NCBI RefSeq assembly: GCF_900313065.1
Contig: NZ_OMPU01000004.1
Span: 323,474-387,473 of the forward strand
Reading direction: 5' to 3'
Source of the DNA: Kiloniella sp. EL199
GTDB taxonomy: Bacteria; Pseudomonadota; Alphaproteobacteria; Kiloniellales; Kiloniellaceae
Length of the DNA: 64,000 bases
In this document: piece after piece, positions 43,623-64,000 of the stretch
Layout: every line of letters begins with the position of its first letter
How positions within the stretch are numbered: position 1 is the first letter of the stretch
Notes under the pieces: model-generated
Database searches by the model: none
What the model was told of the DNA's origin: nothing
The model's input: only the letters and a program-made list of their open reading frames with translations
Made by a program: the position numbers and the translations under genes

Positions 43623-45116
43623 ATGGCTTCCTTGGCTAAGAAAGAAAAGATCCTTCTTATTGAAGATGCGTTACCCATGGCACGTATCTATATGGAATAT
43701 ATGGCGAACGAGCCTTATGACATAACCCATGTAGATACGGGTAAAAAAGCCTTTGCAGCTATTAAGGAGAGCGTGCCGGATGCTATTATTCTGGATATGA
43801 AACTCCCTGATATGGATGGCATGGAGATATTAGGTTATCTCCAGGAAAACGCTATTCCATCCAGTGTTGTTGTTATTACGGCAAATGCCTCTATTTCCGT
43901 TGCTGTTCAGGCTATGCAGGCCGGAGCTTCGGATTTTATTGTAAAGCCCTTCAATGCGGATCGTTTGATTTACACCTTACGCAATGCATTGGAACACCAA
44001 GACCTCGTCAAAATTGTTGGAAGCCTTAAACAGAAATACAGCAAGGGGAATTATTGCCGTTTTATTGGCTCTTCAATGGCAATGAAAGCCGTTTACCAAA
44101 CCATTGATAACGCCGCGACCAGTAAGGCCTCCGTCTTTATCACCGGTGCATCCGGCACAGGTAAAGAACTTTGTGCGGAAGCCCTGCACAGCCAAAGCCC
44201 ACGGCAAAAAGCCAAGTTCATTGCCTTGAACTGTGCTGCTATTCCAAAAGACTTGATGGAATCAGAAATCTTCGGACACGTAAAAGGTGCCTTTACCGGA
44301 GCTGCTCAGGAAAGAGAGGGTGCAGCGAAACTGGCTGATGGTGGAACCCTCTTTCTCGATGAAATCTGCGAAATGGATATCCAGCTTCAGGCCAAAATCC
44401 TTCGTCTTATTCAAAGCGGCACCTTTCAAAAAGTCGGTTCTAGCGATGAAGAAAAAGTCGATATCAGATTTGTTTGTGCTACCAATAGAGTTCCCTGGGA
44501 AGAAGTCCAAGCTGGCCGGTTTAGAGAAGACCTTTACTACCGCCTTCACGTTATTCCCATCCACCTCCCCTCGCTCTATGAACGAGACGGTGATGCCCTG
44601 GAGATTGCCAAAAGCTTCCTGAAGAACTTTACCGAAGAAGAAGGTAAGGCTTTTAAAGGTTTCTCTCCTGAAGTTGAAAAATACATAGGCGACTACAGCT
44701 GGCCCGGAAATGTACGTGAACTTCAAAATGTTGTCCGAAATGCCATCGTCTTAAATGATGGCGAAGAATTAACGCTCGATATGTTACCTCAATCACCAGG
44801 GCTACAGGGAACGACACCTCCTCATGTAACTGGTATAGCTCCCTCTTCTCCTCAGCCAATACCCAGTGCACAACCTGAGCATTCAAATATCACTCCCATT
44901 CCCTCTCCGATGCAGGAGAACTCATCTTCTGTAGGAACAATCAATACAGAAATTCGCCCGATGTGGATGATAGAAACAGAGATGATAATTGCCGCCTTGG
45001 AACAGACCGATGGCAGCGTTCCTAAGGCTTCAGCACTTTTAGAGATAAGTGCCTCAACAATTTACCGAAGATTGAAAGAGAAAAAAGAAGCTGAAAAGCA
45101 AGAAGCTCAACAATAA
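43623..45116 (+). CDS. NtrC/LuxO-type sigma-54-dependent response regulator
   Basis: 497 residues. The receiver domain (1-120) has phospho-acceptor Asp in IILDMKLPDMDG. The AAA+ domain has Walker A GASGTGKE, the sigma-54 contact loop GAFTGA and Walker B GGTLFLDEICEM. A Pro/Ser-rich linker is followed by a Fis-type HTH at the end (ALEQTDGSVPKASALLEIS). It is the only sigma-54 activator in the window and sits beside four sigma-54 promoters, so it very probably controls the exopolysaccharide locus. The cognate kinase is not adjacent. Confidence 0.93.
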   Translation: MASLAKKEKILLIEDALPMARIYMEYMANEPYDITHVDTGKKAFAAIKESVPDAIILDMKLPDMDGMEILGYLQENAIPSSVVVITANASISVAVQAMQAGASDFIVKPFNADRLIYTLRNALEHQDLVKIVGSLKQKYSKGNYCRFIGSSMAMKAVYQTIDNAATSKASVFITGASGTGKELCAEALHSQSPRQKAKFIALNCAAIPKDLMESEIFGHVKGAFTGAAQEREGAAKLADGGTLFLDEICEMDIQLQAKILRLIQSGTFQKVGSSDEEKVDIRFVCATNRVPWEEVQAGRFREDLYYRLHVIPIHLPSLYERDGDALEIAKSFLKNFTEEEGKAFKGFSPEVEKYIGDYSWPGNVRELQNVVRNAIVLNDGEELTLDMLPQSPGLQGTTPPHVTGIAPSSPQPIPSAQPEHSNITPIPSPMQENSSSVGTINTEIRPMWMIETEMIIAALEQTDGSVPKASALLEISASTIYRRLKEKKEAEKQEAQQ

Positions 45117-47638: not shown

Positions 47639-49114
47639 TTATTCTGCGGCTGTTGATGGGACTGGTTCATCTTCTGGAATTCGTCCATAGACATCATCGA
47701 GGCGGACAATATCGTCCTCTCCCAGATAGTCTCCGAACTGAACTTCAATGAGATGAAGAGGCGTATCACCAGGATTGTGCAATCTATGTGCAACTCCTAA
47801 GGGGATATAAACAGATCCATTTTCCTCGATCCGTTTGACTTCTTTGCCTAAGGTCACCTCCGCCACACCAGCGACAACAACCCAGTGTTCTGCTCTGTGG
47901 TGGTGATATTGGTAAGATAGGATTTCGCCCGGCTTTACAGTGATATGTTTAACCTGGTGATTAACACCGACATCAATACTTTGATATGCACCCCATGGAC
48001 GGCGGACCTTCGCCTGTGTATCAGCCTCATCCCTGCCCATACCGCGTAGTTTTGTGACCATCTTTTTCACATCCTGAACACGATCTTTGGCTGCGACCAG
48101 AATGGCATCATCTGTTTCGATGATTATCTGATCTTCCAAACCAATCGCGGTGACCAATCGTCCTGAACTATTGATATAGGTGCCTTTACAATCCTGAAGT
48201 AAAGCATCGCCTTCTTTGACGTTCCCATCAATATCGCTATCTCCCAGGTCCGCAATTGCGTTCCAAGAGCCGATATCACTCCATCTAAAAGAAGAGACCA
48301 TAACTACGGAGGAAGATGTTCGCTCCATTAGTGCATAGTCTATGGAAATCTTAAGCGCCTTTGAAAACTCATCATGATCAGGCAGAACAAAAGGCCAGGC
48401 TTCTGTGCCTTTTTTGAGAGCCAAGCGACAGGCTGAAACAATAGAGGGGTGGAAAAGTTCCATCTGCTCTAGAAACTGGCGTGCGGTAAACATAAACATG
48501 CCGCTGTTCCAATGATGACCACCGCTAGCCAAAAGTTCCTCAGCTGTTTTTACATCCGGCTTTTCAATAAAAGCAGCTGCCCGATAGCAATCGCCCTCGT
48601 AATTAAGCTTTTCACCTTGAGCGACATAGCCATAAGCCGTTTCAGGACGATCTGCCGCCATACCAAAGGTAACAAGTTCACCAGCGCTTGCAGCTTGATA
48701 GGCCGTGGATACTGTTTCGTGGAATAGCTTCTTCTTACCAACAGAGTGATCTGAAGGCATAACCAACATACAAGCATTAGGGTCTATACATTCCAGTGCC
48801 AAGGCAGCCAAAGTTATTGCTGGGGCTGTATCCCTGCTTTCAGGCTCTAATACAACACCACTGACATCTGCATCGATTTCCTTCATCTGCTCACTGATAA
48901 CAAAACGAAAGGCTTCGTTGGAAATGAGCAACGGTGCATTGTAGGCGTCTCGATCTGAAACAAGTTCAACCGTCTCCTGCAGCAGGCTACGTTCACTTAG
49001 TAAGCGAATGAACTGTTTTGGCCAGGTATTACGGGACACAGGCCATAACCGAGTGCCAGAGCCGCCGCAAAGAATGACAGGGAAAATCTTATTAAGGTTC
49101 GTATCATTTGGCAT
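47639..49114 (-). CDS. algA: Mannose-1-phosphate guanylyltransferase / mannose-6-phosphate isomerase
   Basis: 491 residues from the ATG at 49114, which has CAGGAGG 5-6 bp upstream. An ATG 24 bp further up would add eight residues. The N-terminal nucleotidyltransferase signature is LCGGSGTRLWPVSRNTWPKQF (landmark). The C-terminal cupin isomerase has VKPGEILSYQYHHHRAEHW (landmark), with metal-ligand His residues. It supplies GDP-mannose for AlgD. It is the first gene of a unit with the RTX gene, read from a sigma-54 promoter at 49211-49225. Confidence 0.92.
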   Translation of the reverse strand: MPNDTNLNKIFPVILCGGSGTRLWPVSRNTWPKQFIRLLSERSLLQETVELVSDRDAYNAPLLISNEAFRFVISEQMKEIDADVSGVVLEPESRDTAPAITLAALALECIDPNACMLVMPSDHSVGKKKLFHETVSTAYQAASAGELVTFGMAADRPETAYGYVAQGEKLNYEGDCYRAAAFIEKPDVKTAEELLASGGHHWNSGMFMFTARQFLEQMELFHPSIVSACRLALKKGTEAWPFVLPDHDEFSKALKISIDYALMERTSSSVVMVSSFRWSDIGSWNAIADLGDSDIDGNVKEGDALLQDCKGTYINSSGRLVTAIGLEDQIIIETDDAILVAAKDRVQDVKKMVTKLRGMGRDEADTQAKVRRPWGAYQSIDVGVNHQVKHITVKPGEILSYQYHHHRAEHWVVVAGVAEVTLGKEVKRIEENGSVYIPLGVAHRLHNPGDTPLHLIEVQFGDYLGEDDIVRLDDVYGRIPEDEPVPSTAAE

Positions 49115-49210
49115 GATGCCCTCCTGACATTGGGACACCTATATAAAGGTGTCGAAAGGTGAAGGATGCTTCTTGAGTACTTGATTAAAGAAGTACCGAT
49201 ACCTTTATCC

Positions 49211-49453: not shown

Positions 49454-51052
49454 ATGAAAATGAAGATCAGACGAGAGAGACCAAGCCAAAGACTTCACCA
49501 TAGAGTGTCTGCGCCTATTCGTATTGATCTGACAGATGGCGTTTATAAAGCTCATGACTGGAGCCTGGGTGGTTTCGCCATTAATGACTATCAAGGTAAA
49601 ACTGATGTCGGCGAAGAACTACCGGGAACATTACACATTCCCTTCCAAGGTTTTGATATCTCCTTCCCCTTTGTAGCTGATGTCATACGGAAAACTGATG
49701 ATAATCAACTAGCCGTAAAATTCCAGGACCTGAGCGAACGTGAAGTGGAAATGATGACCCACTTTGTTGATGAGCTGGTTCGCGGTTCCATGACTTCTGT
49801 TGATGATGCTCTTTTAAGGATTGATACCCCGGTAACACCAGTCCCCACGACGCCCGATAAAAATGACAGCAAGCAGATCCCTCTGAAGCGTTGGTCTCTA
49901 AAACCAATCCTCTTTACACTTTTTTATATATGCCTAGGGGCCCTGGTAATTGGTTATGCTGGGCTAACAGCTTATAGCTACATCTTCCGGATGGAAATAA
50001 ACACAGCTGTTGTTACTGCCCCAGTGGAACCTTTAAAAGCTTCTGTTACTGGTAAAATTCAAAAAGTTATTGTTCCTTCAGATGTGCTTGTACCAGGAAA
50101 GACACCAATTGTTGTTTTTGAGGACCCTAAGTTAAAAGAGGACATTGATCTCGCACGGATCAAAATTGATCGTCGCGCTATGGAGGTACTGGCCAGGCAG
50201 AAGGAACTAGAATCTGAAATGGCCAAGGTGAATGACTATCGCCTCATAGCCGAAGGAGAGATTGCCCGACTAAAGAGCAGAGTTAGTACCCTCGCCCATC
50301 AGGTAAAGCTTGCTCACAATCAAATGGTCAGACTTAAAAATCTCGAGAAGAAAGGCTGGATGAGTAAAGCCCGCCGAGAAGAGATTGAAGCACAACATGC
50401 GAAAGTTCGTGGAGAGCTTGAAGAAGCCAAAATTCTTTTATCTGAACGTCAAACACTTCTAAGTACCCTGGATGAAGGACGTTATTTCTCTAGTGGACGC
50501 TTTGAAGGAAATATAAGCGAAAGACAAACTGATCTAGATCTGGCTCTTAACCGTGTCACACTTGCAAAGAGTGAATTACAGGCCCTTATGAGCCACCGTG
50601 ACCGTCTTGCTATCCATGCGCCTTCTGACGGTCGGATCCTTAGGTTTTTAAAACTCGAAGGTAACCCCATCAAACAGGGGGAAACCATCGCCCTTTTTGA
50701 AAAAGATGAACGCCGAACGATACATGCCTTTCTAACCCAGGAAGAAGTCCTCGAGGTCGGTCTTGGAGATAAAGCAACCATCTTCTTTCCTTCCATAGAT
50801 GAAAGAGCTGATGCCTTTGTGATTAAGGTCGATCGTACCAGCGGCTTCGTCGAAGAAATGCAATCCCGTTACCAATGGCGCGGCCCCAAAGATCGTTCTG
50901 CTCTTATCGTTCTCTCTTTTATTGGGCTGACCTCAGAGGAAATCCGAAGCCGCTTTTCACCTGGTTTGCCTGCTATAGTGATTTTTGATCGTGGAAACAC
51001 CAGCGAGCTTACCAGCAAAGTTACTGCCATGGTTGTTGAAAGGGGGGCCTGA
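49454..51052 (+). CDS. alg44: Alg44-like c-di-GMP receptor and membrane-fusion protein
   Basis: 532 residues. The N-terminal PilZ domain keeps both c-di-GMP signatures: RLHHR (RxxxR) near residue 15 and DWSLGG (DxSxxG) near 36. One membrane helix lies at about 155-180. The C-terminal half is a HlyD-like periplasmic domain with a coiled coil (about 235-350) and lipoyl-like barrel (IHAPSDGRILRFLKLEGNPI). A second ATG at 49460 is better spaced from GAGGAG. It activates polymerisation by Alg8 when c-di-GMP is bound. It overlaps alg8 by one base. Confidence 0.88.
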   Translation: MKMKIRRERPSQRLHHRVSAPIRIDLTDGVYKAHDWSLGGFAINDYQGKTDVGEELPGTLHIPFQGFDISFPFVADVIRKTDDNQLAVKFQDLSEREVEMMTHFVDELVRGSMTSVDDALLRIDTPVTPVPTTPDKNDSKQIPLKRWSLKPILFTLFYICLGALVIGYAGLTAYSYIFRMEINTAVVTAPVEPLKASVTGKIQKVIVPSDVLVPGKTPIVVFEDPKLKEDIDLARIKIDRRAMEVLARQKELESEMAKVNDYRLIAEGEIARLKSRVSTLAHQVKLAHNQMVRLKNLEKKGWMSKARREEIEAQHAKVRGELEEAKILLSERQTLLSTLDEGRYFSSGRFEGNISERQTDLDLALNRVTLAKSELQALMSHRDRLAIHAPSDGRILRFLKLEGNPIKQGETIALFEKDERRTIHAFLTQEEVLEVGLGDKATIFFPSIDERADAFVIKVDRTSGFVEEMQSRYQWRGPKDRSALIVLSFIGLTSEEIRSRFSPGLPAIVIFDRGNTSELTSKVTAMVVERGA

Positions 51053-52650
51053 TGGATAACCTCCAATCATATAAGTACTTCGTGGATGATCCAGATAGAC
51101 CGGTTCCTTTTAAAGAGAAGTGGTCGCCGAAGATGCTCTATCACATCTGGCTTTATTTCATGATCTGTTTCATTGCACTGACTGCCCTCCCCAATAACTA
51201 CTGGGATCCGCAAGTCAGGGAAGTCACTATCATCATCGGTACCCTTGGGATATGGCGTTATGGTTGGTGGTTCACCCATGCGGTTCGGGCACGCATCTAT
51301 CAATATTTAGTCTATCCAAAACTTCGGGCTAAAGCGGATGCTGTCTTTGCCAGTGGTTGGAAGGCAAGTCATGTTCACTTCATGATGACTACCTTTAAAG
51401 AACACCGGCAAGTTACTGAAATGGTGATGCAAAGTATCATTGACCAAATAAAGGATTTGGGATCACCAGGTACGATATGGCTTGGGTCTGGAGATATATA
51501 TGACGAGAGAATTATCTCTAATTATCTACGACAGAACGCCAAAGGCATCGACCTTGATCTTGTCATCATTAGACAAAACCAGCCAGGTAAGCGCCTTGCA
51601 ATAGGCCTCGTTCTGAGGGCAATGAACCGAGGTAATATTGGCAAGGACGATATTGTAGTTTTTATGGATGGTGATGCCATTATTGGCCCTGGCTGTGTAC
51701 GGAAATGTGCCACCCTATTCCTCGATGATCCTGATTTACAAGCTGTTACAACGGACGAAGAAGTCATCTGTTTTGGTCCGGCATGGGTAAGGACTTGGCT
51801 ACTTATGCGTTTTGCCCAACGACGGATTGCCATGCAAAGCCATGCCTTATCAAAGAAGGTTCTCACTCTAACAGGACGGATGTCTGTATTTCGGGCTAAA
51901 CACTTGGCGAGTTTGAAGATGATCAGGCTTTTAGAAGCGGATCATCTGGAACATTGGCTATGGGGAGAATTTCGTTTCCTATCGGGCGATGACAAGAGCA
52001 CCTGGTATTACATGCTACTCCAAAATGCCAAGATGCTCTACGTACCAGATGCCATGGTTTATACTATTGAGTTTATTGAAGGAACTGGCCTGGATCGAAT
52101 GGTTCAGAACTTTCGTCGCTGGTCCGGTAATATGCTCCGCAACGGTTCCCGTGCCCTTGCTTTGGGGCCACGTAAAATAGGTTTCTTTATCTGGTGGTGC
52201 ATCCTGGATCAACGTATTGCTATGTGGACCATGTTAGTTAGCCCGATCCTGGCTGTGATGACTACCCTGCTGCACAGTGCGAGTTATTTGATTTCCTATG
52301 CCGTTTGGATCGCTGTATCCAGGATGGCACTTTCTATCATTCTCTACAGCTATATGCGCCGGATCCATTTAGCCGTTCCTGGTATTTTGTATTTCAACCA
52401 ATTCATCAATGCAGCAGTTAAAGTTTACTGTCTCTTTCGTCTCTCCAAACAGCGTTGGAGCAACAGGGGAGATCAGAAATCCGCTGATGGTACCGGTTGG
52501 CTCGAAGTATTCCGAACAACAATGGCTTCATATCTCACCGCCCTTTATCTCGCTATGCTTTGTTTAGGTGTTACGCTCTATTCGGGCCTTATCCCTCTAC
52601 CATCCCTTCCAATGATCGAGATGGTTCTTAGCAGTATCTTTCCTTATTAA
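51052..52650 (+). CDS. alg8: Alg8-like family 2 glycosyltransferase (polymerase)
   Basis: 532 residues. N-terminal membrane helices are followed by a GT2 domain with the DxD-type DGDAI, the TDEE catalytic region (VTTDEEVICFG) and the acceptor motif QNFRRW, then several C-terminal helices. It polymerises GDP-mannuronate (or a related GDP-uronate) across the inner membrane together with Alg44. It is the second gene of a two-gene unit read from the 49409 promoter. Confidence 0.9.
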   Translation: MDNLQSYKYFVDDPDRPVPFKEKWSPKMLYHIWLYFMICFIALTALPNNYWDPQVREVTIIIGTLGIWRYGWWFTHAVRARIYQYLVYPKLRAKADAVFASGWKASHVHFMMTTFKEHRQVTEMVMQSIIDQIKDLGSPGTIWLGSGDIYDERIISNYLRQNAKGIDLDLVIIRQNQPGKRLAIGLVLRAMNRGNIGKDDIVVFMDGDAIIGPGCVRKCATLFLDDPDLQAVTTDEEVICFGPAWVRTWLLMRFAQRRIAMQSHALSKKVLTLTGRMSVFRAKHLASLKMIRLLEADHLEHWLWGEFRFLSGDDKSTWYYMLLQNAKMLYVPDAMVYTIEFIEGTGLDRMVQNFRRWSGNMLRNGSRALALGPRKIGFFIWWCILDQRIAMWTMLVSPILAVMTTLLHSASYLISYAVWIAVSRMALSIILYSYMRRIHLAVPGILYFNQFINAAVKVYCLFRLSKQRWSNRGDQKSADGTGWLEVFRTTMASYLTALYLAMLCLGVTLYSGLIPLPSLPMIEMVLSSIFPY

Positions 52651-52810: not shown

Positions 52811-52844
52811 TCTTATCAGTTAAATATCTGTGAGGAGAAAAACC

Positions 52845-54131
52845 ATGAGGACACAAACAGGTTCAACAAAAGTCTATTGCTTAAGTACCCTGCTCGTTTT
52901 TTTCCTCGGGCTAATGCCGGTATTTTTCAATGCCATTATTGATCCCTACGAACGGCATCAGTTGATCGATCTAGACTTGGACAAAAAGAAGGTCAGTGAG
53001 AAAGCTCACTATCCCCTTTGGAAGATTAATCACTACCCAGAAAATACAACTAACATCATTATTCTCGGTGATAGCCGTGCCCGAGCTCTACGAGATAAAT
53101 ACTGGCATGAGCTTGGCTTAAAAGGTGCTTATAATTTTGCCTATGGTGGGGCAACAATCTACGAAATTTATGACACCTTCAACTATGTCAAAGATAACCC
53201 CAATCTGAAAAAACTCATTATAGGTATTCAACTAAGAAGCTTTGATGAGGACCATAAAGGCGGCCTTAACCGGGTTCCTGAAGCTATAAGGCTGCATCAA
53301 AATACATTCCAGTACTATTCCAACTGGTTTGTTTCCCGCATTGCTCTGAAAAACCTAGAGCGCAAATATAAATCAGAGTTAAAACAAATTACCTCTGTAC
53401 TGCCTTCAATTATCTCTGCGGCAGATGCCCAGAACTTAAACCTTAACAATGGGCTAGAGAAATTAATTGATCCAGAAAACTGCCGAAACTGCCTTTTGCC
53501 TCAAGGTATCCCGTCTTCGCCTTATAGAACTCAACATATTGGTCAAGGGTATTACTTCGGACATGATCTCGGTAGATGGGGACGTTTATGGGATCCGATT
53601 TCAATCGACAGAACGCTTCCAAAGAAGTTCGACAAACAAGTACTGAAGAACGCGCGTTCTGATTGGCAAGCCTTCCACTTTTCAGAAAAACTCTGGGCCT
53701 ACCTTATTGATATTGCAACATGGTGCCAGAAAAATAACGTCGAGTTGGTATTTGTCATTCCCCCCACCATAGTGGAAATGCAGCAACGTATTGTCGATTT
53801 TGGTTATGGGGATCTTAATCACGAGTTTCGTAAAAACCTCTCTCGTCTAGGGGCGGTTATAGATTTTGACTTTGTAAACGAAGTCACCTTGGATCTAACC
53901 CGCTTCACCGATGCCTATCACTTTGATTACAAGCTCTCCAAGTTGATGGTGGGTGAGATAACAAGGTTTATCAAAGCTGATACTCCCTCAACAAAATTCG
54001 CGCTTAAACGTCGTAAGGACGTCATCTGTCCCATTCGATCTGAGGATATTTCAAACAAAATGGAGGATGAAACCTTCCTGGTCAAAGAAGGACAGGCCTG
54101 CCGGATATGGAGTATGAAAAATGACGGATAG
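52845..54131 (+). CDS. Membrane-anchored SGNH-type protein, probable polymer O-acetylation factor
   Basis: 428 residues from the ATG at 52845 (GAGGAG upstream). A GTG at 52830 would add five. A signal-anchor helix is at about residues 11-32. SGNH block I is ILGDSRARAL (Ser nucleophile) near residue 85, and block V is DAYHFD near 372. AlgJ, AlgX and DltD share this fold and motif order. Just upstream of an algI-type acyltransferase gene, it likely carries out or assists acetyl transfer to the polymer in the periplasm. Similarity to AlgJ is functional by context, not a clear orthology. Confidence 0.72.
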   Translation: MRTQTGSTKVYCLSTLLVFFLGLMPVFFNAIIDPYERHQLIDLDLDKKKVSEKAHYPLWKINHYPENTTNIIILGDSRARALRDKYWHELGLKGAYNFAYGGATIYEIYDTFNYVKDNPNLKKLIIGIQLRSFDEDHKGGLNRVPEAIRLHQNTFQYYSNWFVSRIALKNLERKYKSELKQITSVLPSIISAADAQNLNLNNGLEKLIDPENCRNCLLPQGIPSSPYRTQHIGQGYYFGHDLGRWGRLWDPISIDRTLPKKFDKQVLKNARSDWQAFHFSEKLWAYLIDIATWCQKNNVELVFVIPPTIVEMQQRIVDFGYGDLNHEFRKNLSRLGAVIDFDFVNEVTLDLTRFTDAYHFDYKLSKLMVGEITRFIKADTPSTKFALKRRKDVICPIRSEDISNKMEDETFLVKEGQACRIWSMKNDG

Positions 54132-55314
54132 AACAAAACGTACAGTCATACCAACCACAATCCTTTTAATGCTTACGGCTGGTATCTTTTACTGGCTTTG
54201 GCAAAACCATGATTGGCGCACAAAAAACGCCCCAACCGACCCGATTGTAAATGAATACATCAGCCAGGCTCGCGGATTACAAAAACAAGGCAAACTCAAT
54301 GATGCCATTGTGATCTTTGAAAAATACGCCCTACAAGGTTATCCCGATGCAATGTTTCATGTGGCAAAAGCTTACAGCCGCGGCTGGGGTGTTGAGCCTG
54401 ATTTGGATACAGCCCGTCACTATTACCTCTTAGCTGTTCAATACAGCTTTTCTTACAGGGCTGAAACAGCCCATGAACTAGGCCGCTTGTTTCAGAGATC
54501 CAAAGGTCCGGATTGCAACACCATTGCCGTTGAATGGTTTAAAAAGGCCCTGAAATGGAAATACAATAAAGCCGCTCTGCAATTGGCCATTCATTATGAA
54601 AAAGGCTTAGGGGTAGATCAGGATATCAACAAAGCGATCGAATATTATGAAATCGCAGCCAACTCCGGTATTGAGCAAGCGCTATTAAAGTATGCACGGC
54701 TTTTAGCCAAAGGAAGATATGGGATTACTCCTGATCCAGACAAAGCCTTATCCTTAACTGAGGTCGCCGTCATTTCACTGGAACAGAAAGCGCGTTCTGG
54801 CTCCGCAAGTGCAGCAAAACAATTGGGTCGTCTCTATAGAGATGGTGAGTTAATCAAGAAAAACACGACTAAAGCTGAAAGCTGGCTTCTTAAAGCAGCA
54901 CGATTAGGAAGTGTCGGTGGCATGCATGACTACGCCCACCTTCTGTTGGACAAAAAACCGCTTTCCAAGAACAACAGCTCTTCTGCACTTGATTGGCTAA
55001 ACAAAGCTGCTGACCTCGGTCATGGAGGAGCTATGACAGCCCTGGGGCGCTTTCACATCGACAAAAAATACGACTTGAAACCCGCCGGCGCACTAGAATT
55101 TTTCGAGCGAGGAACCAAGGTAGGGCACGGTGGAGCGATGGAAGAACTCGCCCGTCTCTACGCCAAGGGATACCTCGTTAAGGAAGACCGCCAGAAAGCT
55201 ATTGAGCTAGCCACAATTGGCAGCAACAAAGGTCACTTGGGCTGTAGCCGATTACTGGAAAAGCTGACCAAGAAGGCCAGCGCCGATAACCAAACTTCCC
55301 AAACAAAATCTTGA
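54121..55314 (+). CDS. Sel1-repeat (TPR-like) periplasmic scaffold, AlgK-like
   Basis: 397 residues. It has a single N-terminal membrane anchor (about residues 8-25) with no lipobox Cys. Eight or so Sel1 repeats follow (for example AMFHVAKAYSRGWGVEPD, ALQLAIHYEKGLGVDQD, AMEELARLYAKGYLVKED). It overlaps the SGNH gene by 11 bp. AlgK scaffolds the alginate export complex through similar repeats, and this protein takes that place in the cluster. It is anchored differently from lipoprotein AlgK. Confidence 0.75.
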   Translation: MTDRTKRTVIPTTILLMLTAGIFYWLWQNHDWRTKNAPTDPIVNEYISQARGLQKQGKLNDAIVIFEKYALQGYPDAMFHVAKAYSRGWGVEPDLDTARHYYLLAVQYSFSYRAETAHELGRLFQRSKGPDCNTIAVEWFKKALKWKYNKAALQLAIHYEKGLGVDQDINKAIEYYEIAANSGIEQALLKYARLLAKGRYGITPDPDKALSLTEVAVISLEQKARSGSASAAKQLGRLYRDGELIKKNTTKAESWLLKAARLGSVGGMHDYAHLLLDKKPLSKNNSSSALDWLNKAADLGHGGAMTALGRFHIDKKYDLKPAGALEFFERGTKVGHGGAMEELARLYAKGYLVKEDRQKAIELATIGSNKGHLGCSRLLEKLTKKASADNQTSQTKS

Positions 55315-55325
55315 GGAGATAAACC

Positions 55326-56843
55326 ATGGTATTTAGCTCTCTTGAATTCATTTACCTCTTTCTGCCTCCAGTTTTGTTGGTGTTCTACCTGCTTCGTTTT
55401 CTGCAGTGGGAGAACGGTATAGTTTGGTGGCTGATTGCAGCTTCCCTAGCTTTTTATGCTTGGTGGAGCCCCATACACCTTATTCTTCTGCTCTTCTCAG
55501 TAACAGCCAACTTTTATCTTCATAAGGTCTTGCTCGAACGTAAAAGCAGGCTCGTACTCACGAGTGGGATTATTGGAAATCTAGGATTACTTTTGTACTT
55601 TAAGTATGCAGATTTTCTTATCGGTAATGTAAATGCTATTGCAGGTTCTGAAATTCCGCTCTTGGGGATAGTACTTCCTCTTGCGATCTCATTCTTTACC
55701 TTCCAGCAGATCTCCTTCCTTTTTGATACCTATAGAGGTGAAATTGAGCAGTGTAATTTCTCCAAGTACTGCCTCTTTGTGGTCTTCTTTCCACAGTTAA
55801 TTGCCGGACCAATTGTTTTACAAAAACACACCATCCCGCAGTTCACTTTAAAGACCTTTACCCAACGCGTAGGCCTCAACTTTGCGACAGGTGCTACTCT
55901 CTTTGTCATTGGCTTGTTTAAGAAGATTGTCATTGCGGACGGTATTGCCCCCTACTCCACCTCTGTCTTTACCCTGGCAGAACAGGGACAAGCTCTGCCA
56001 ATTGACGTGGCCTGGATGGGGACCATTGCCTATACGTTCCAAATATATTTCGACTTCTCAGGCTATTGCGACATGGCACTGGGGCTTGCAAGAATGTTTG
56101 GCATCAAACTCCCTCTGAACTTCAACTCCCCTTATAAAGCCCAAAACATTGTCGATTTTTGGCGCCGTTGGCACATTACGCTTTCGGTTTTTCTCCGGAA
56201 CTACCTCTACATTCCTTTAGGCGGCAATCGGAAAGGTCCTGTTAGACGCTATGTAAACTTGACCATCACCATGTTACTCGGTGGGTTATGGCATGGTGCA
56301 AGCTGGAACTTTGTTTTCTGGGGTTTGCTACACGGTATCTATCTGTCCATTAATCACGCTTGGTCAGCAATTGGTTTTCACAAAAACCTCGAAGTCTTTT
56401 TCCATCCTCTTGTGATTAAGGTTTTCTACCATGCTTTAACCCTCTTGGGTGTTATGGTCGCCTGGATCTTTTTCAGGGCTGAAAGCTTTACAGGGGCCGA
56501 AACCATGTTGCTTAGCATGTTTGGGCAAGCCGGATATATCTACCCTGATATTATCAAGGACCTCGCTCTTGATCATGAGTTCTTCTGGTTTATCAGCTGT
56601 GTCATTGGTTTCATCATCTTCTTCTGTCCCAACTCTGTTGAAATCACGCGTAGATATCAACCGACCATCGACTACAAGAGCCTGCTGGATAAAACCCATC
56701 AGCTAAAAGCACGATTTATCAAAGCCTATGCCTGGCGCCCCTCAACCAACTGGTCCTGCGCCATGCTGGGAGTGGGCGTCATCAGCCTACTCCAGATCTA
56801 TCGTCTCGATGAACTTACAGAATTTATCTACTTCAATTTTTAG
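55326..56843 (+). CDS. algI: AlgI-like MBOAT O-acyltransferase
   Basis: 505 residues with about 11 membrane helices. MBOAT landmarks are PQLIAGPIV, DFWRRWHITLSVFLRNYLYIPLGG (landmark) and the catalytic His in GGLWHGASWNFVFWGLLHG. It passes acetyl groups across the inner membrane for polymer acetylation, in concert with the SGNH protein two genes upstream. It starts 11 bp after the Sel1 gene. Confidence 0.9.
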   Translation: MVFSSLEFIYLFLPPVLLVFYLLRFLQWENGIVWWLIAASLAFYAWWSPIHLILLLFSVTANFYLHKVLLERKSRLVLTSGIIGNLGLLLYFKYADFLIGNVNAIAGSEIPLLGIVLPLAISFFTFQQISFLFDTYRGEIEQCNFSKYCLFVVFFPQLIAGPIVLQKHTIPQFTLKTFTQRVGLNFATGATLFVIGLFKKIVIADGIAPYSTSVFTLAEQGQALPIDVAWMGTIAYTFQIYFDFSGYCDMALGLARMFGIKLPLNFNSPYKAQNIVDFWRRWHITLSVFLRNYLYIPLGGNRKGPVRRYVNLTITMLLGGLWHGASWNFVFWGLLHGIYLSINHAWSAIGFHKNLEVFFHPLVIKVFYHALTLLGVMVAWIFFRAESFTGAETMLLSMFGQAGYIYPDIIKDLALDHEFFWFISCVIGFIIFFCPNSVEITRRYQPTIDYKSLLDKTHQLKARFIKAYAWRPSTNWSCAMLGVGVISLLQIYRLDELTEFIYFNF

Positions 56844-56854
56844 GAGATCTTAGT

Positions 56855-58801
56855 ATGAAGCGCTTCATCCTCCCCCTTCTCCTATTAAGTGTTCCATTTG
56901 TGGCTTATTCTGAAGAGTACCCTGACTGGCTGATTACTCTTCAGGGCTCAAATCAAACATACAACACCCAAACACAGGAAGGCTCACGTAAAGGTGTTAC
57001 TCGTAAAGGCTTAATCTCTGTTTCTAAAAGCGGATCGAACCAGCTTGAAGTTTACTGGGAACCTGGCGCATACAGGGCAACATCTGTATTTAATCAGACA
57101 AAAATTATTGATGGTTTTGACCTCGATGATGTCTCTAGAACAAAGAGTTTCCGCTTCAATAAAGAGGGTGATACGGCCTACATCCGGACAACTAAAGGCC
57201 CTCAAGCTATTGTAGAGCTCATCTATAACCAAAAGAGCATCGTCGCCTGGCCTAGGCTTTCCATCGTGAGCCTCCTGTCCTTTCAAAAGACGGGGTTTTA
57301 TATCTCTCTATTTTCTAAGAAGACCCAAGCCACGGAGTTTTGGTTTTATTCTTTACCCTCTGATGATCACCTTCAGGCAAAGGGGGAAAAAGTCGGCACT
57401 TTAAAAAACTGTTCTCTACTCAGTAGTAAAGTCGTGAAAACAGGTATCGCTATGTCAGTCTACTGTGATCGGGAAAGAGGCAGTGATGTTGTTTTCTTAA
57501 GCTTCAAAACCGGCAAAATCGAGAAGATAAAAGCAACATCTGACGATGAATTCCTTGCCTATTCACATCTAAAAAAGAGCAAAGATAGCATTCCGGTAAT
57601 GTCATTATCCGGTAGCAATCAGGGACGCATCTTTTTCCACGCTATATCGCAGAGTTTTACCAAGTATCTTGGGGAGCCCATAGCCTACAGTTCTGATGAA
57701 AGCGGTAAACAAAGCTGGAGCCAGTCTTATAGAACCCTGAGCTTAGCCAACCTGTACAAAAAAACTGGTCATCCTGTTTTTGCCACACTTGCTCAACAGG
57801 CTATGGAAAGAACACTGGACCAGCAAAACCTATTAAGGGGCATAGGCGGAGATCACAATCCGTCTTGTGCTTGGGCATCTCGGATCTATTCAGAAGATGG
57901 CAAGAGCCCACTGTCTTTTATGATTAATCAGGGAATGATCTCGTCAGGTTTAATTTATGCCTGCGAGCTTCTTGGTGATAACTGTCCCCTTAAACTCAGA
58001 CAAGCAATCTTGAACAATGCATCTTGCTTGGCCGTTTCTTACGAGAAGTATTACCTACCTGACGAGGGACTTTATCGGATCCCCTATGCAGCCCCCTTTA
58101 GATATGACGGTATCTGGGCACCCTGGAACTGGCATATGATGTGGTCATCGGTCCTGTCATACGTTGGCCATGAGACCGATAATAGAGCCCTGACTAAACG
58201 TGCCCATTCCATAACAAACCGTTTTATTAAAACATGGGAAGAAACAAGAGAGCCCACCTCGAAAATTCTTTGGCGTTACTGGCCAGAACAATATTATCGC
58301 GGCTGGCAATCTGAAGACTTGGTTTCTGCATCTCGTCCAAAACAAAAAAAGAAAAACCTCCAGAAAGAGAGGTACGAGGATATAAACCACGCAAGCATTA
58401 GCCTGCTTGGCCTTTCACATATGAAGCAACAGCTATCTTCTGAACAAATAAACGGTTTAGAGAACACGTTGAAATTCTTGCTTCAACAAGGGACGATCCT
58501 CCCAAGAGATATGGATGGTCAGGGCCCGAGAAGCCCAAGGTGGCTACCTGGTGCAGGTTGGCATATCATTGCAAATCCAGCATTAGAACAGCTCTATTCC
58601 CGATATCTCCCGGGCGCCTCGACAGGCGATCAACATCTTGCTTATGCCCAACTGTTTGATCCAGAAAAAGAGTTTTCCATAGAGCTTAGCTTCTCACAAT
58701 GTCGGCAATCGGCTTGCGAAAAAATTAATAGCCATAGCTTTGATAACCCAAAGGAATTTTTAACAGAAAATCCAATCTTTAGCCTCAGAGAAATCCAATA
58801 G
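56855..58801 (+). CDS. Secreted protein with probable (alpha/alpha) toroid domain, function unknown
   Basis: 648 residues. A signal peptide (cleavage about VAYS-EE, residue 20) is followed by a beta-rich N-terminal half. The C-terminal half is rich in helices and aromatic residues: LYRIPYAAPFRYDGIWAPWNWHMMWSS near residue 415, given only as a landmark, and YEDINHASISLLGL near 508. Such toroids occur in polysaccharide lyases and uronyl C5-epimerases. It occupies the position where algG/algL would be expected, 11 bp after algI. A lyase or epimerase acting on the polymer is the leading guess, but no family was recognised with confidence. Confidence 0.6.
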   Translation: MKRFILPLLLLSVPFVAYSEEYPDWLITLQGSNQTYNTQTQEGSRKGVTRKGLISVSKSGSNQLEVYWEPGAYRATSVFNQTKIIDGFDLDDVSRTKSFRFNKEGDTAYIRTTKGPQAIVELIYNQKSIVAWPRLSIVSLLSFQKTGFYISLFSKKTQATEFWFYSLPSDDHLQAKGEKVGTLKNCSLLSSKVVKTGIAMSVYCDRERGSDVVFLSFKTGKIEKIKATSDDEFLAYSHLKKSKDSIPVMSLSGSNQGRIFFHAISQSFTKYLGEPIAYSSDESGKQSWSQSYRTLSLANLYKKTGHPVFATLAQQAMERTLDQQNLLRGIGGDHNPSCAWASRIYSEDGKSPLSFMINQGMISSGLIYACELLGDNCPLKLRQAILNNASCLAVSYEKYYLPDEGLYRIPYAAPFRYDGIWAPWNWHMMWSSVLSYVGHETDNRALTKRAHSITNRFIKTWEETREPTSKILWRYWPEQYYRGWQSEDLVSASRPKQKKKNLQKERYEDINHASISLLGLSHMKQQLSSEQINGLENTLKFLLQQGTILPRDMDGQGPRSPRWLPGAGWHIIANPALEQLYSRYLPGASTGDQHLAYAQLFDPEKEFSIELSFSQCRQSACEKINSHSFDNPKEFLTENPIFSLREIQ

Positions 58802-58938: not shown

Positions 58939-58953
58939 TGGCACGCTTTCTGC
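58939..58953 (+). promoter_or_regulatory. Sigma-54 (-24/-12) promoter for algD
   Basis: TGGCACGCTTTCTGC has a perfect -24 element and a one-base change in the -12 element (CTGC for TTGC), 41 bp before the algD ATG. Confidence 0.8.
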
Positions 58954-58993
58954 CTTTACCTACTTAGAAACACAACTCTATTTGGAGAAGACG

Positions 58994-60799
58994 ATGAAAG
59001 CCGACATCTCAGAAGTTCGACAAAAACAAGAGCTCCGCTCTGTAACGATAAATCAATACAATGATCGTGAATTGGAACTCGTCCCGGAAAGAATGGGCAT
59101 CAGTATCATTGGCCTTGGGTATGTCGGCCTCGTTTCCGCAGCCTGCCTTTCTTCCTGTGGTCATAACGTGATTGGCTTGGATAAGGACCAATCCAAACTT
59201 AATGACCTAAGAAGAGGCATTTCTCCTATTGTTGAAGAAATGCTTCCTGAACTCCTTGAACAAGGGGTCCACGACAAAACCATTTCTGCGACAGATGATG
59301 TTACAGAAGCTATAGCTAATACAGATATGACCTTTGTCTGTGTTGGCACCCCGAGTACAGAAACAGGGCATTGCGATTTAACCGCTTTGAGATCTGTAGC
59401 TGTTGATCTCGGGAAGGCACTCAAAGAGAAATCTAAATATCATCTGATCGTCATTAGAAGTACGATCCCTCCCGGAACAACGCGCAATGAACTTTTACCT
59501 ATTTTAGAGCGCTATTCTGAACTTGAATGCGGGAAAGATTTTGGTCTTTGTTTTCATCCAGAATTTTTGCGGGAGAGTTCTGCCGTAAAAGACTTTTATT
59601 CACCTCCCAAAACAGTGTGTGGGGGCTACGACGAACGCAGTTCAGTTATCCTTGCCAAGCTCTATGACAACATTGATGACAAGGTCATCTATACCTCAAT
59701 TGAGGCCGCAGAAACTGTTAAATATGTGGACAACACATGGCACGCGCTAAAAGTGTCTTTTGCGAATGAAATTGGCAAAATCTGTAAGGCAGCGGATATA
59801 GATAGTCATGAAGTTATGGATATCTTTATTCAGGATACCAAGCTCAATCTCTCTTCCTACTATCTAAAGCCCGGTTTTGCTTATGGCGGATCATGTCTGC
59901 CTAAGGATGTGCGTGGCATCAATCACCTCGCCCGTTCTCTCGGCGTAACGACACCTATTTTAGCTGCAATTGATCACAGCAACCGATCTCAGATCGAACA
60001 TGCCATGGACATGATTGAGGCCACAGGAGGCAAGAAACTGGGTTTCTTAGGCCTAACCTTTAAGCCTGGTACAGATGATCTTCGTGAAAGCCCGATCCTC
60101 CCTGTTATCTCAATGCTCATGAGCAAAGGCTATCAAGTCCGTATTTACGATTCAAATCTGGATGTCGATCGTTGCGTTGCCCATTACAAACAACATGCAA
60201 AGGCAGCTAATTCATGGGAAACCCAATGTCTAGAGCATCTAGATGAAATTGTCTGCACAACCCTTGCTGAAATTAAATCCTATAGTGATACCCTCATCAT
60301 TTGTCATGATACACCGGAATTCAGAGACGAAACCGTTGAAAGACGTGATGATCAGGAAGTAGTGGATCTGGTAAGAACCTTTGGATCTATCACCCATAAA
60401 GACAAGATTTTTACTGTTGGTATGGATGATTACATTCAAAAACCTCTCACCCAGAGCTCCCTGATAGAAAAAATTCCCCCAACGGATGATAAACAAAAGC
60501 CAATGCGTGTTCTTGTTGCTGATGACAATCCAGCCAATGCAAGAATTGCACAGGTCATGTTGGAAAAGATTGGTCATAAAGCAGTCACTGTTCTGGACGG
60601 CAACGAAGCTATGCGCAAACATCTTACCAATAATTTCGATCTTATTCTGATGGACTTGAACATGCCCGAACTCGACGGTCTGGGTGCAACCAAGCTCATC
60701 CGAAATCTTCCTGGTGATAAACGCGACGTTCCCATCATCGCCCTCACCTCTCATGCCGCACCAGAAGAGAGCACAACATATCGCGGCCTGTGTTGGTAA
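58994..60799 (+). CDS. algD: GDP-mannose 6-dehydrogenase with an internal permuted receiver domain
   Basis: 601 residues from the ATG at 58994 (GGAG 7 bp upstream), against about 435 for ordinary AlgD. A 33-residue N-terminal extension precedes the Rossmann start MGISIIGLGYVGLVSAACL. The catalytic Cys is in PGFAYGGSCLPKDVRG. The C-terminal GDP-binding region continues to EVVDLVRTFGSITHK. Then 124 residues of receiver-domain sequence intervene (60401-60772) before the final TTYRGLCW, which resembles the YxGxCW end of GDP-mannose dehydrogenases. The enzyme oxidises GDP-mannose to GDP-mannuronate, the alginate precursor. The frame is intact and all active-site residues I can check are present, so it is likely functional. 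Confidence 0.88.
   Translation: MKADISEVRQKQELRSVTINQYNDRELELVPERMGISIIGLGYVGLVSAACLSSCGHNVIGLDKDQSKLNDLRRGISPIVEEMLPELLEQGVHDKTISATDDVTEAIANTDMTFVCVGTPSTETGHCDLTALRSVAVDLGKALKEKSKYHLIVIRSTIPPGTTRNELLPILERYSELECGKDFGLCFHPEFLRESSAVKDFYSPPKTVCGGYDERSSVILAKLYDNIDDKVIYTSIEAAETVKYVDNTWHALKVSFANEIGKICKAADIDSHEVMDIFIQDTKLNLSSYYLKPGFAYGGSCLPKDVRGINHLARSLGVTTPILAAIDHSNRSQIEHAMDMIEATGGKKLGFLGLTFKPGTDDLRESPILPVISMLMSKGYQVRIYDSNLDVDRCVAHYKQHAKAANSWETQCLEHLDEIVCTTLAEIKSYSDTLIICHDTPEFRDETVERRDDQEVVDLVRTFGSITHKDKIFTVGMDDYIQKPLTQSSLIEKIPPTDDKQKPMRVLVADDNPANARIAQVMLEKIGHKAVTVLDGNEAMRKHLTNNFDLILMDLNMPELDGLGATKLIRNLPGDKRDVPIIALTSHAAPEESTTYRGLCW
60401..60772 (+). other. Circularly permuted REC (receiver) domain inserted in AlgD
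   Basis: Residues 470-593 of AlgD. The order is beta5-alpha5 first (TVGMDDYIQKPLTQSSLIEKI, landmark), a linker PPTDDKQKP, then beta1 to alpha4 (RVLVADDNPANARIAQVML ... LILMDLNMPELDG ... IIALTSHAAPEES). The acidic pair D510/D511, phospho-acceptor D554, T585 and the beta5 K483 are all retained. The two ends join as a normal REC without duplicated or missing residues, so it is one complete permuted domain. Confidence 0.8.
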
Positions 60800-60828
60800 A
60801 TTCTTCACTTGAATTCTAGACCGCGTAT

Positions 60829-60868
60829 GGACCCGGAGAGGTCTCCCCCCAGCACCTCATCCGGGTCC
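60829..60868. terminator. Stem-loop between algD and algC
   Basis: GGACCCGGA-GAGGT pairs with ACCTC-A-TCCGGGTCC (14 bp with one bulged A), no T-run. It lies in the 105-bp algD-algC gap and could attenuate or process the transcript. Confidence 0.65.
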
Positions 60869-60904
60869 GCCCAAATTCACCTCTTAAACCGGAGGACCAA
60901 GACA

Positions 60905-62350
60905 ATGGTTACAACTCATACAAGTCAAAGCGCTGAAAGGTTTGCAGAAATCCCTGAGGCTTTTATCAACCCACATAAACTCTCTTCAACTATTCTAAGA
61001 GAATACGATATCAGAGGCACCGTCGGCAAAGATCTCTCAAGAGAAGATGCCTACGCTATTGGCCTTAGTTTCGGCTATCTGGTTAAAGAAGTTGGTGGGT
61101 TTCATGTCTGTGTTGGACGCGATGGTCGCCATAGTTCACCAGCGCTCTCGAAAGCTTTAATCGCTGGCCTTACACAGGTAGGTATAACAGTAACGGATAT
61201 CGGTCTATGCCCCACACCGATGGTCTATTTTGCTGATCGTGCTTTGAATACACATGGCGCCATCATGGTTACGGGATCACATAACCCGCCAGACCAGAAT
61301 GGTTTTAAAATGGTTTGGCAGCATAAACCCTTCTTTGGCAAACAGATCCAGAGACTTGGTGCCGTAGCAGCATCTGGCATCTTCCATAAAAGTCTCTCAA
61401 AACTGGAAAGCCTGGATATCTCCCAAGCCTACTGTTACCGCATGCTGGAAAGTTGCAAAATTTTAAAGGAACCTAAAGTAGCCTGGGATCCTGGTAATGG
61501 TGCAGCAGGTGAAATTCTTGAAAAGTTACTGCCCCTGCTCCCTGGTGAACACATCCTCATTAACGCTAAGATTGACGGTGATTTTCCAAGCCATCATCCT
61601 GATCCAACCGTTCCAGAAAACCTGGAACAGCTGACCCAGAAAATACTTGAGAACAACTGTGATTACGGCTTTGCCTTTGACGGAGATGGCGACCGGGTTG
61701 GTGTTGTTGATAATAAGGGCCAGATCCTATGGGGAGATCAGCTTTTGGCCTTACTGGCTGAAGAGTTACTTGAAAGTTCTCCGGGCGCGACAATCATCGC
61801 AGATGTGAAAGCCAGTCAGGTTCTCTTTGATCATGTTGAGGCAAAAGGAGGTAATCCCCTGATGTGGAAGACTGGCCATTCTCTTATAAAAAATAAAATA
61901 ACCTCAACCGGCGCCCTCCTCGCTGGAGAGATGAGCGGTCACATATTTTTTGCCGATAGTTACTACGGTTTTGATGATGCCATCTATGCGGCAATCCGAT
62001 TGATGAATTGTTTTGAAAGCCGTGGGAAAAGAGTTTCCGAACTAAGAGATGGCCTACCAAAGGTACTCAACACTCCAGAGTTAAGGTTCCCCTGCGAGGA
62101 AGATCAGAAATTTGGCTTTATTGAACGTATAAAAGCCTATGTAGAAAAGAAACGTTTTGAATATTCTGATGTCGATGGTGTGCGTGTGAAGTGTCACGAT
62201 GGTTGGTGGTTACTTCGAGCCTCAAATACCCAGGCTGTTTTGGTTGCCCGTTGTGAAGCACCAGATGAAAAGCGCCTTGAACTCGTTAAAAACCATCTAC
62301 GAACTTCTCTGCGAAAATGCGAAATCCCTATGCCACCCGACTTTCATTAA
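60905..62350 (+). CDS. algC: Phosphomannomutase/phosphoglucomutase
   Basis: 481 residues from the ATG at 60905, preceded by CCGGAGGA. A longer frame to 60809 runs through the hairpin and is rejected. Motifs are the phospho-Ser loop MVTGSHNPPDQNG, metal loop FAFDGDGDRVG, sugar loop GEMSGHIFF and C-terminal phosphate loop RASNTQAVLVARCEA. It interconverts mannose-6-phosphate and mannose-1-phosphate, upstream of AlgA and AlgD. It probably shares the algD promoter. Confidence 0.93.
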   Translation: MVTTHTSQSAERFAEIPEAFINPHKLSSTILREYDIRGTVGKDLSREDAYAIGLSFGYLVKEVGGFHVCVGRDGRHSSPALSKALIAGLTQVGITVTDIGLCPTPMVYFADRALNTHGAIMVTGSHNPPDQNGFKMVWQHKPFFGKQIQRLGAVAASGIFHKSLSKLESLDISQAYCYRMLESCKILKEPKVAWDPGNGAAGEILEKLLPLLPGEHILINAKIDGDFPSHHPDPTVPENLEQLTQKILENNCDYGFAFDGDGDRVGVVDNKGQILWGDQLLALLAEELLESSPGATIIADVKASQVLFDHVEAKGGNPLMWKTGHSLIKNKITSTGALLAGEMSGHIFFADSYYGFDDAIYAAIRLMNCFESRGKRVSELRDGLPKVLNTPELRFPCEEDQKFGFIERIKAYVEKKRFEYSDVDGVRVKCHDGWWLLRASNTQAVLVARCEAPDEKRLELVKNHLRTSLRKCEIPMPPDFH

Positions 62351-63421: not shown

Positions 63422-64000
63422 TTAGTGGACCATCCAGCCTTTGTCTTGTTTATATTGGCGTAGAGCTGCAAATACTTCTTCAGCAACCTTGGGCATTCTT
63501 GCCGCTGTTTCTAAAGCTGCATCATTCAATACACGCTGGCAGAGCATTTCTACTTCCATGGCTATGGATTGCATTTCCATCGCACCATATGCAGCCGCAG
63601 AACTTCCAAGGGTGTGGCATTCCAGTTCCAAGGTTTCCAAATCACGCTGCTTTGTTGCTTGAGATATGGCAAGCACTCTGCGTGCAGCATCTTCAAGGAA
63701 GAGATCTATCAATTCTGGCATCATGGAAAGGTCAGTTTCATTAGCCAGGCGTCTTAGAACAGAAGTGTCAATCGGCTTATCCATATCACTACTTATAAGC
63801 GATTTATTGTTATCTTCCAAATGTTCAGTTTCGTCGGAAGACTGCAAAGCTGTTTCAACAACATTTTCACCTTTCTCTGCGGTCTCCATGACTTCAATAA
63901 AGGTATCAAGAACCTCAATAACACGCTCTTTTCGTATAGGTTTTCTGATGTATTCATCCATTCCAGCTTCCAAAACCTTTTCACGAAACCCCTGCATGGC
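63422..64000 (-). CDS. Hybrid histidine kinase, C-terminal part (REC end + Hpt); 5' part outside window
   Basis: The frame is open to the window edge and begins in the alpha4-beta5 part of a receiver (AMQGFREKVLEAGMDEYIRKP with the conserved Lys). A linker of about 60 residues leads to an Hpt domain whose phospho-accepting His is in ECHTLGSSAAAYG. The ATG at 63997 is internal, not the start. It is the tail of a multistep phosphorelay kinase, located two genes from the receiver-bearing algD. A functional link is possible but not shown. Confidence 0.85.
   Translation of the reverse strand, partial: AMQGFREKVLEAGMDEYIRKPIRKERVIEVLDTFIEVMETAEKGENVVETALQSSDETEHLEDNNKSLISSDMDKPIDTSVLRRLANETDLSMMPELIDLFLEDAARRVLAISQATKQRDLETLELECHTLGSSAAAYGAMEMQSIAMEVEMLCQRVLNDAALETAARMPKVAEEVFAALRQYKQDKGWMVH

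Follow-up and report, generated by a model that had tools for sequence, protein, structure and literature searches.

A circularly permuted receiver domain inside an AlgD-type GDP-mannose dehydrogenase and its possible phosphorelay control at an alginate locus

Introduction

Alginate is a slime polymer, the building block of which is made by AlgD, the committed enzyme of the alginate pathway. In the window analyzed here (the whole stretch of DNA, 64,000 nucleotides in length), an algD gene encodes a product in which sequence resembling a response regulator receiver domain (REC) separates the enzyme core from its C-terminal tail. Receivers usually work on separate output domains attached at their ends. 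The locus raises the question of whether the insert is a complete receiver, whether it has been kept as a working one, and what signal it could bring to the enzyme.

Results

The insert lies in the frame of an AlgD-type enzyme

The algD-REC gene spans positions 58994 to 60799 of the forward strand (ATG at 58994, stop at 60797-60799) and encodes 601 aa. The insert, at 60401-60772 (residues 470-593), falls within this open reading frame, with the frame and coordinates that the first-pass annotation had given. The N-terminal, central and C-terminal UDPG_MGDP_dh domains (PF03721, PF00984 and PF03720) each scored above their Pfam cut-off and, together with an alignment of the proteins carrying the insert (hereafter carriers), place the AlgD body at residues 36-464 (59099..60385, forward strand); in that alignment the body closes with the strand VVDLV of the final Rossmann domain. 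The closest solved structure is the P. aeruginosa GDP-mannose dehydrogenase 1mfz (E 1.8e-117, residues 34-461), to which the AlgD-REC model was matched by Foldseek with a TMt of 0.90. C301 of the GGSCLPKD motif and H250 are invariant in the alignment of five carriers and both align to the P. aeruginosa chain, where His217 is the histidine typical of GDP-mannose dehydrogenases according to the accessible part of PMC4794789. As judged from its sequence, the 601-aa product is an AlgD-type GDP-mannose 6-dehydrogenase, predicted to oxidize GDP-mannose.

After the insert, the chain resumes with the tail TTYRGLCW (60773..60796, forward strand), which had been read as the C-terminal tail of AlgD. A comparison of AlgD C-termini bears this out, since a G[IVLF][CGAN]W terminus is present in 59 of 60 distinct REC-less sequences taken as AlgD-type, a count that excludes L087, L112 and the more distant L052-L062 (in that group L052 and L053 terminate in YYALCW, and the rest have other ends). 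The same figure rules out a spurious tail.

The insert is a circularly permuted receiver

The 124 residues of the insert comprise, in this order, half of α4, β5, α5, a linker, β1-α1-β2-α2-β3-α3-β4 and the start of α4. Response_reg (PF00072) matched residues 506-591 with 76.1 bits against a curated cut-off of 30.2, a match that rules out a chance likeness to REC. The match spans profile positions 1-83 of 111 only, and the lacking last quarter (GMDDYIQKP and α5) precedes it. When the halves were rejoined with the front piece moved to follow the back one, the window protein scored 91.6 instead of 78.6 bits; the corresponding values were 83.1 versus 69.5 bits for L026 and 84.6 versus 70.6 bits for L029, that is, gains of 13.0, 13.6 and 14.0 bits, and the rejoined sequences covered profile positions 1-110, 1-110 and 2-110 of 111 in the three of three proteins tested (1-110 in the window). 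We chose the cut points manually, six residues before the G of GMDDY and eight before the end, a choice that partly predetermines the normal length of the rejoined α4 but not the gain in score and cover. All five β-α units of a receiver are thus present in the rejoined halves, but the order from β1 to α5 is not kept. Because β5-α5 precede β1, the insert is a permuted variant of PF00072 rather than an ordinary member. The original claim that the two ends of a rotated receiver together make up one domain agrees with these gains of 13-14 bits and the near-full profile cover.

The signature residues of a receiver were found at the positions first claimed for K483, D510, D511, D554 and T585. On the forward strand these are the receiver lysine Lys483 at the end of β5 (60440..60442), the acidic pair Asp510-Asp511 (60521..60526), the predicted phosphorylated aspartate Asp554 (60653..60655) and Thr585 at the end of β4 (60746..60748). 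Lys483 and Asp554 are invariant in the five aligned carriers, the acidic pair is Glu-Asp in the remaining carriers and Thr585 is replaced by Ser in L029; the full signature set (acidic pair, phospho-Asp, Thr/Ser and Lys) is accordingly kept in five of five aligned carriers, and likewise in a sixth (L201/L209). The right border of the REC can be placed only to within a few residues, since a similar stretch precedes the tail in REC-less relatives (L030 ...PEDSDTYHGICW versus ...PEESTTYRGLCW); this pre-tail stretch is PEDS-like in REC-less relatives (L030: DQPEDSDTYHGICW) and reads PEES or PEQS in carriers.

The full-length protein was modeled with AlphaFold2 from an alignment of 33 rows (5 carriers, 20 REC-less AlgD and 8 receiver pieces), yielding a mean pLDDT of 86.2 and a pTM of 0.68. 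Structure prediction of the whole protein had been proposed at the outset as a check on the insert, and the insert came out ordered (pLDDT 73-97 in ten-residue blocks over 471-580), with its elements in the permuted order: H468-474, E479-482, H487-493, E505-509 and H513-525 in the first half and E529-533, H536-545, E550-554, H562-570 and E581-585 in the second. The junction blocks are weaker (pLDDT 62 for 461-470; 75 and 67 over 581-600). When the insert was folded alone, from its single sequence without alignment, pLDDT was 58.7 and β5 was absent. Foldseek gave 1955 matches; the 50 that were listed are all sugar dehydrogenases, with no receiver among them. Closure of the two halves into one receiver is suggested by the order of the elements and the confidence of the model. 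The two REC pieces might instead pair between the chains of an AlgD dimer, or between dimers, and such domain swapping has a parallel in P. aeruginosa AlgD, which is a domain-swapped dimer according to the accessible parts of PMC10740432 and PMC4794789. The model with one chain, ordered over the insert, and the match of the rejoined halves to a whole receiver profile speak for closure within a chain, although both are compatible with swapping; we regard pairing between chains as decidedly unlikely.

The insert is shared by six genomes and is under purifying selection

A search for orthologs with the same insert, suggested as a test in the first-pass annotation, yielded five further genomes in which the phosphorylation residues are kept, so that six genomes carry the insert at the same place: the window, L026, L027, L028, L029 and L201/L209 (genome G821). 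An insert common to six genomes is more than chance, and their agreement on the architecture also rules out an assembly or sequencing error, the probability of which we put at practically nil. L026 to L029 matched with 48-53% identity in the best segment, and their records are titled metagenome-assembled Alphaproteobacteria. Since L026, L027, L028 and L201 are close kin (82-92% identical), the six carriers represent about three lineages. These fall in three orders, as the own order of the window genome, the order of G442/G443 and the order of G444 each hold carriers of their own only.

Few AlgD owners carry the insert. With one genome taken per species and patterns that reach close relatives only, a pattern scan returned 44 relatives, 4 of which matched over the full length, and in a protein search of 58 relatives 37 matched at E 1e-60, with the REC covered in the own genome only. 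Matches were obtained in 26 of 385 genomes of a class sample (1 carrier), 7 of 61 genomes of the own order (1 carrier), 29 of 249 sampled from the order of G442 (2 carriers), 2 of 25 in the order of G444 (1 carrier) and 19 of 199 in the family of G442 (3 carriers), where G821 (L201, L209) was found. A phylum sample searched at E 1e-150 gave matches in 20 of 398 genomes and 1 carrier; few candidates were scored per genome in the large samples. Within its genus the window AlgD is sporadic: at E 1e-110, AlgD-type matches were absent from all eight other genomes (G001-G008, with G005 just 77% complete). L045, L048 and L049 are AlgD genes that group with proteobacterial AlgD, while the titles of their records name Anaerolineae, Acidimicrobiales and Phycisphaerae; they reflect either transfer or mis-binned contigs.

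The insert is under purifying selection in the three close pairs that could be compared, as dS is saturated for distant pairs (ambiguous bases of L028 were skipped). Its dN/dS was 0.013 (L026/L027), 0.059 (L026/L028) and 0.076 (L027/L028), against 0.047, 0.070 and 0.064 for the body in the same pairs; the insert is lower twice and slightly higher once. The first-pass annotation had offered, as an alternative to regulation, a fragment of a tandem REC that was transposed and retained because it folds. The part of this reading that concerns origin is plausible from sequence order, since one tandem REC, that of L065, has its parts arranged as in the insert; disregarding tandem status, at least 80% of the insert was covered in one place by 233 of 1185 matching plasmid records. 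Passive keeping of a receiver fragment inserted by chance, without signalling, fits this tandem REC and the lack of the insert in the close relatives L030 and L032/L071; it is very improbable in view of insert dN/dS values of 0.013-0.076 and signature residues kept in six of six carriers.

In trees of the AlgD body, carriers do not form one clade, and the group of L026, L027, L028 and L201 is nearest to REC-less L032/L071 and L030. This topology would fit several origins of the insert, yet a single clade of carriers survived a tree test that left out L051, L085, L112 and L087 (p-AU 0.395). The identical rotation and place of the insert favor a single origin, which would have been followed by losses or transfer.

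A hybrid kinase and an NtrC-type regulator accompany all carriers

The C-terminal part of a hybrid kinase (end of REC, Hpt) lies at 63422..64000 on the reverse strand. The gene continues past the window, the whole being L121:896-3634, and encodes 912 aa with a PAS-HisKA-HATPase-REC-Hpt architecture by Pfam; it ends at 63422, 2.6 kb past algD. An NtrC-type response regulator (REC-Sigma54_activat-HTH_8 by Pfam) is encoded at 43623..45116 on the forward strand, 13.9 kb before algD. A homologous hybrid kinase is present at six of six carrier loci (five of 886-922 residues and the sixth matched over residues 22-922), as is a homolog of the NtrC-type sigma-54 regulator. PAS, HisKA, HATPase, REC and Hpt were detected in all three kinases scanned (L121, L113 and L120), and the kinases of the other three carrier loci match these across nearly their whole length. 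At the G444 locus the kinase directly follows algD on the opposite strand. Two further genes adjoin kinases of this kind: a stand-alone 139-aa receiver (L121:3838-4257, forward strand) just past the window, and a phosphonate-type periplasmic binding protein by Pfam (L113:7911-8786, reverse strand) beside the G442 kinase, with homologs in G441 and G443, which may feed a signal to the kinase.

By tblastn, the pair of kinase and NtrC-type regulator also occurs in 5 of 20 neighborhoods of REC-less AlgD (L124, L125, L130, L134 and L136, the kinase of L136 being without Hpt by Pfam); three others (L126, L127 and L129) have a kinase but no NtrC. The control stretches reach about 10 kb to either side (L123, L134 and L142 are short, at 11.5, 15.3 and 4.0 kb) and the carrier stretches are longer, at 20-37 kb; with the carriers, too, limited to about 10 kb, the pair was found in five of six of them versus 5 of 20 REC-less neighborhoods. 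The view that the kinase is tied to AlgD-REC alone is thus unsupported. The pair therefore either predates the AlgD receiver or is independent of it, and may serve transcription alone.

Among 58 REC stretches of the own genome, the REC of the adjacent kinase (L149) scored best against five of five AlgD RECs tested, with 44-53% identity over 83-84 residues; for the AlgD REC of the window its lead is slight (79.7 versus 78.2 bits for L181, which has the higher identity). Matches to HKREC_L113 and HKREC_L120 were disregarded because those rows contain AlgD genes themselves. When kinases of other alginate loci were added, the REC of the L125 kinase, from a REC-less locus, was the best for four of five AlgD RECs and that of the window kinase for the fifth; no Hpt was detected in the L125 kinase. 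A tree of RECs, built with 49 of the 58 own RECs and without the long row L130a, leaves the nearest relative of the AlgD REC undecided. Since the best matches are RECs of kinases, the AlgD receivers belong with the receivers of hybrid kinases, those of alginate loci among the closest.

Sigma-54-like sites precede algD and other genes of an alginate-type cluster

The algD-REC gene sits in an alginate-type cluster that combines AlgA and AlgC-like equivalogs with PilZ, GT2, Sel1 and MBOAT neighbors. AlgA/ManC (47639..49138, reverse strand) matched the GMP_PMI equivalog above cut-off and has a sigma-54-like site 87 bp upstream. On the forward strand follow an Alg44-like protein (49454..51052; PilZ above cut-off, a weak HlyD match below, and a sigma-54-like site 45 bp upstream), an Alg8-like family 2 glycosyltransferase (51052..52650), an AlgK-like Sel1-repeat protein (54121..55314; the NCBIfam AlgK match is far below cut-off), an AlgI-like MBOAT protein (55326..56843) and, beyond algD, an AlgC-like phosphoglucomutase/phosphomannomutase (60809..62350; PgmG equivalog above cut-off). 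The PilZ domain is kept in the Alg44-like protein, so that control of the polymerase by c-di-GMP may coexist with the control of AlgD proposed below. Two products of the cluster are less easily placed. Between the AlgI-like gene and algD, a 648-aa protein (56855-58801) gave no Pfam or NCBIfam match and one weak solved-structure match (E 0.09), and it has homologs at other alginate loci (G444, with 52% identity, L126, L130 and L137). At 45207-47597 on the reverse strand, a 796-aa RTX-repeat protein has DUF4114 and a type I secretion domain; other NCBIfam RTX names are far below their cut-offs for this protein, and RTX-type matches occur at many alginate loci.

The sigma-54-like -24/-12 site of algD, TGGCACGCTTTCTGCC, is located at 58939..58954 of the forward strand, 55 bp before the ATG. 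Sites of this type (TGGCAC start, with GG and GC ten bases apart) lie 46-57 bp before the start codon in six of six carriers; among REC-less controls, a site was found within 450 bp of the match start in 4 of 20, with about 0.034 expected per stretch from overall density. Besides the sites before the AlgA and Alg44-like genes, one in the window precedes a 433-aa gene at 52830; allowing up to two mismatches, four of ten sites in the window lie before alginate genes and six elsewhere. Only the algD site matches the shorter pattern TGGCACGNNNNNTGC exactly. The NtrC-type regulator would be the activator at these sites.

Discussion

A proposed phosphorelay acting on alginate transcription and on AlgD

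Kinase, regulator, promoter-like sites and further carriers extend the finding beyond the first observation of a receiver in AlgD. Starting from the architecture, conservation, selection, signature residues, neighbors and promoter-like sites described above, we infer phosphotransfer to the enzyme, the use of α4 as a lever and the sign of the effect as follows. The receiver would have been opened inside α4, its old ends joined by the α5-β1 linker, and fitted into AlgD after the final strand of the core and ahead of the tail, whereby a GDP-mannose dehydrogenase would have been made into a response regulator. The hybrid kinase of the locus (HisKA-HATPase-REC-Hpt) would autophosphorylate and hand the phosphate to its Hpt, which would in turn supply the NtrC-type regulator as well as AlgD, the latter at Asp554; the regulator would drive the sigma-54-like promoters of alginate genes, including that of algD. 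In ordinary receivers, α4 is the element that shifts most. Phosphorylation of Asp554 would move this helix, the two ends of which lead into the enzyme core and the tail, and the shift would act on the tail or on dimer packing and so change dehydrogenase activity, most likely upwards; activation is our guess because the same relay would induce the alginate genes. The permutation would matter precisely because the open ends lie in α4, so that its movement reaches the enzyme through both junctions, with the core and with the tail. To open a domain in a moving helix and close it elsewhere is a design of engineered sensors.

The suggestion in the first-pass annotation that this is a phospho-regulated AlgD fares differently in its two parts. 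A working receiver is favored because the insert is conserved in six genomes, is under purifying selection, keeps its signature residues and is accompanied at its loci by a kinase with Hpt; phosphorylation of Asp554 and its effect on the enzyme are predictions. As the arrangement is kept with a sensor kinase in six genomes of three orders, the enzyme is probably switched by phosphate. We consider it reasonably probable that one phosphorelay controls both alginate transcription and AlgD itself via the permuted REC. The fuller claim, a natural allosteric switch that arose by circular permutation and through which a single phosphorelay sets alginate transcription and the activity of the committed enzyme, is more tentative, and we give it slightly less than an even chance. 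The REC could also leave catalysis unchanged and serve for docking or localization, keeping AlgD close to the polymerase or to the kinase in the membrane, or it could act as a sink for the kinase's phosphate and so dampen the signal that reaches the NtrC-type regulator. The closeness of the kinase REC to the AlgD REC, through which AlgD could compete for the same Hpt, and the presence of the kinase and NtrC pair at loci without an AlgD REC are in keeping with such a role. A mere tag would be simpler at an end of the protein, however, and six of six carriers have the same insertion point, between core and tail and open at α4, which makes this explanation unlikely in our judgment.

If the allosteric reading is true, the locus provides a naturally permuted receiver and a sugar-nucleotide dehydrogenase under phospho-Asp control, AlgD-REC becomes a direct test of how α4 motion is passed on, and one phosphorelay governs a biopolymer pathway through its genes as well as its enzyme.

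Comparison with known systems

Among the matches listed from the open-access literature, which leaves subscription journals mostly outside, no natural permuted receiver domain was found; nor, among those matches, was any sugar-nucleotide dehydrogenase with a receiver, in line with the original remark that no dehydrogenase of this arrangement had been described. The cRec domain is a proposed cyclic-phosphate-processing receiver, which the accessible part of PMC7824862 does not term permuted.

With P. aeruginosa AlgD (1mfz, 1muu, 1mv8) the window enzyme shares a full-length dehydrogenase core, in which GGSCLPKD and the WHA histidine are kept; the P. aeruginosa chain, at 436 residues, has no room for a receiver, whereas the window AlgD has 601 aa and contains one. 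The AlgD REC has all strands, helices and signature residues in common with the receivers of hybrid kinases (PF00072; L121:896-3634) and differs from them in its rotated order, its opening in α4 and its position inside an enzyme. Activation of a sugar-nucleotide dehydrogenase by phosphorylation, as proposed here, has counterparts in Ugd of E. coli and B. subtilis and Cap5O of S. aureus, which are activated by phosphorylation of the enzyme's own tyrosine according to the accessible part of PMC4794789; those enzymes are modified on a tyrosine of their own, whereas the window AlgD has a built-in receiver for which phosphorylation on Asp is proposed. In Pseudomonas, the NtrC-family two-component regulator AlgB is reported to be needed for algD transcription. 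An NtrC-type regulator is common to that system and to the present locus, which has, in addition, a receiver inside the enzyme itself.
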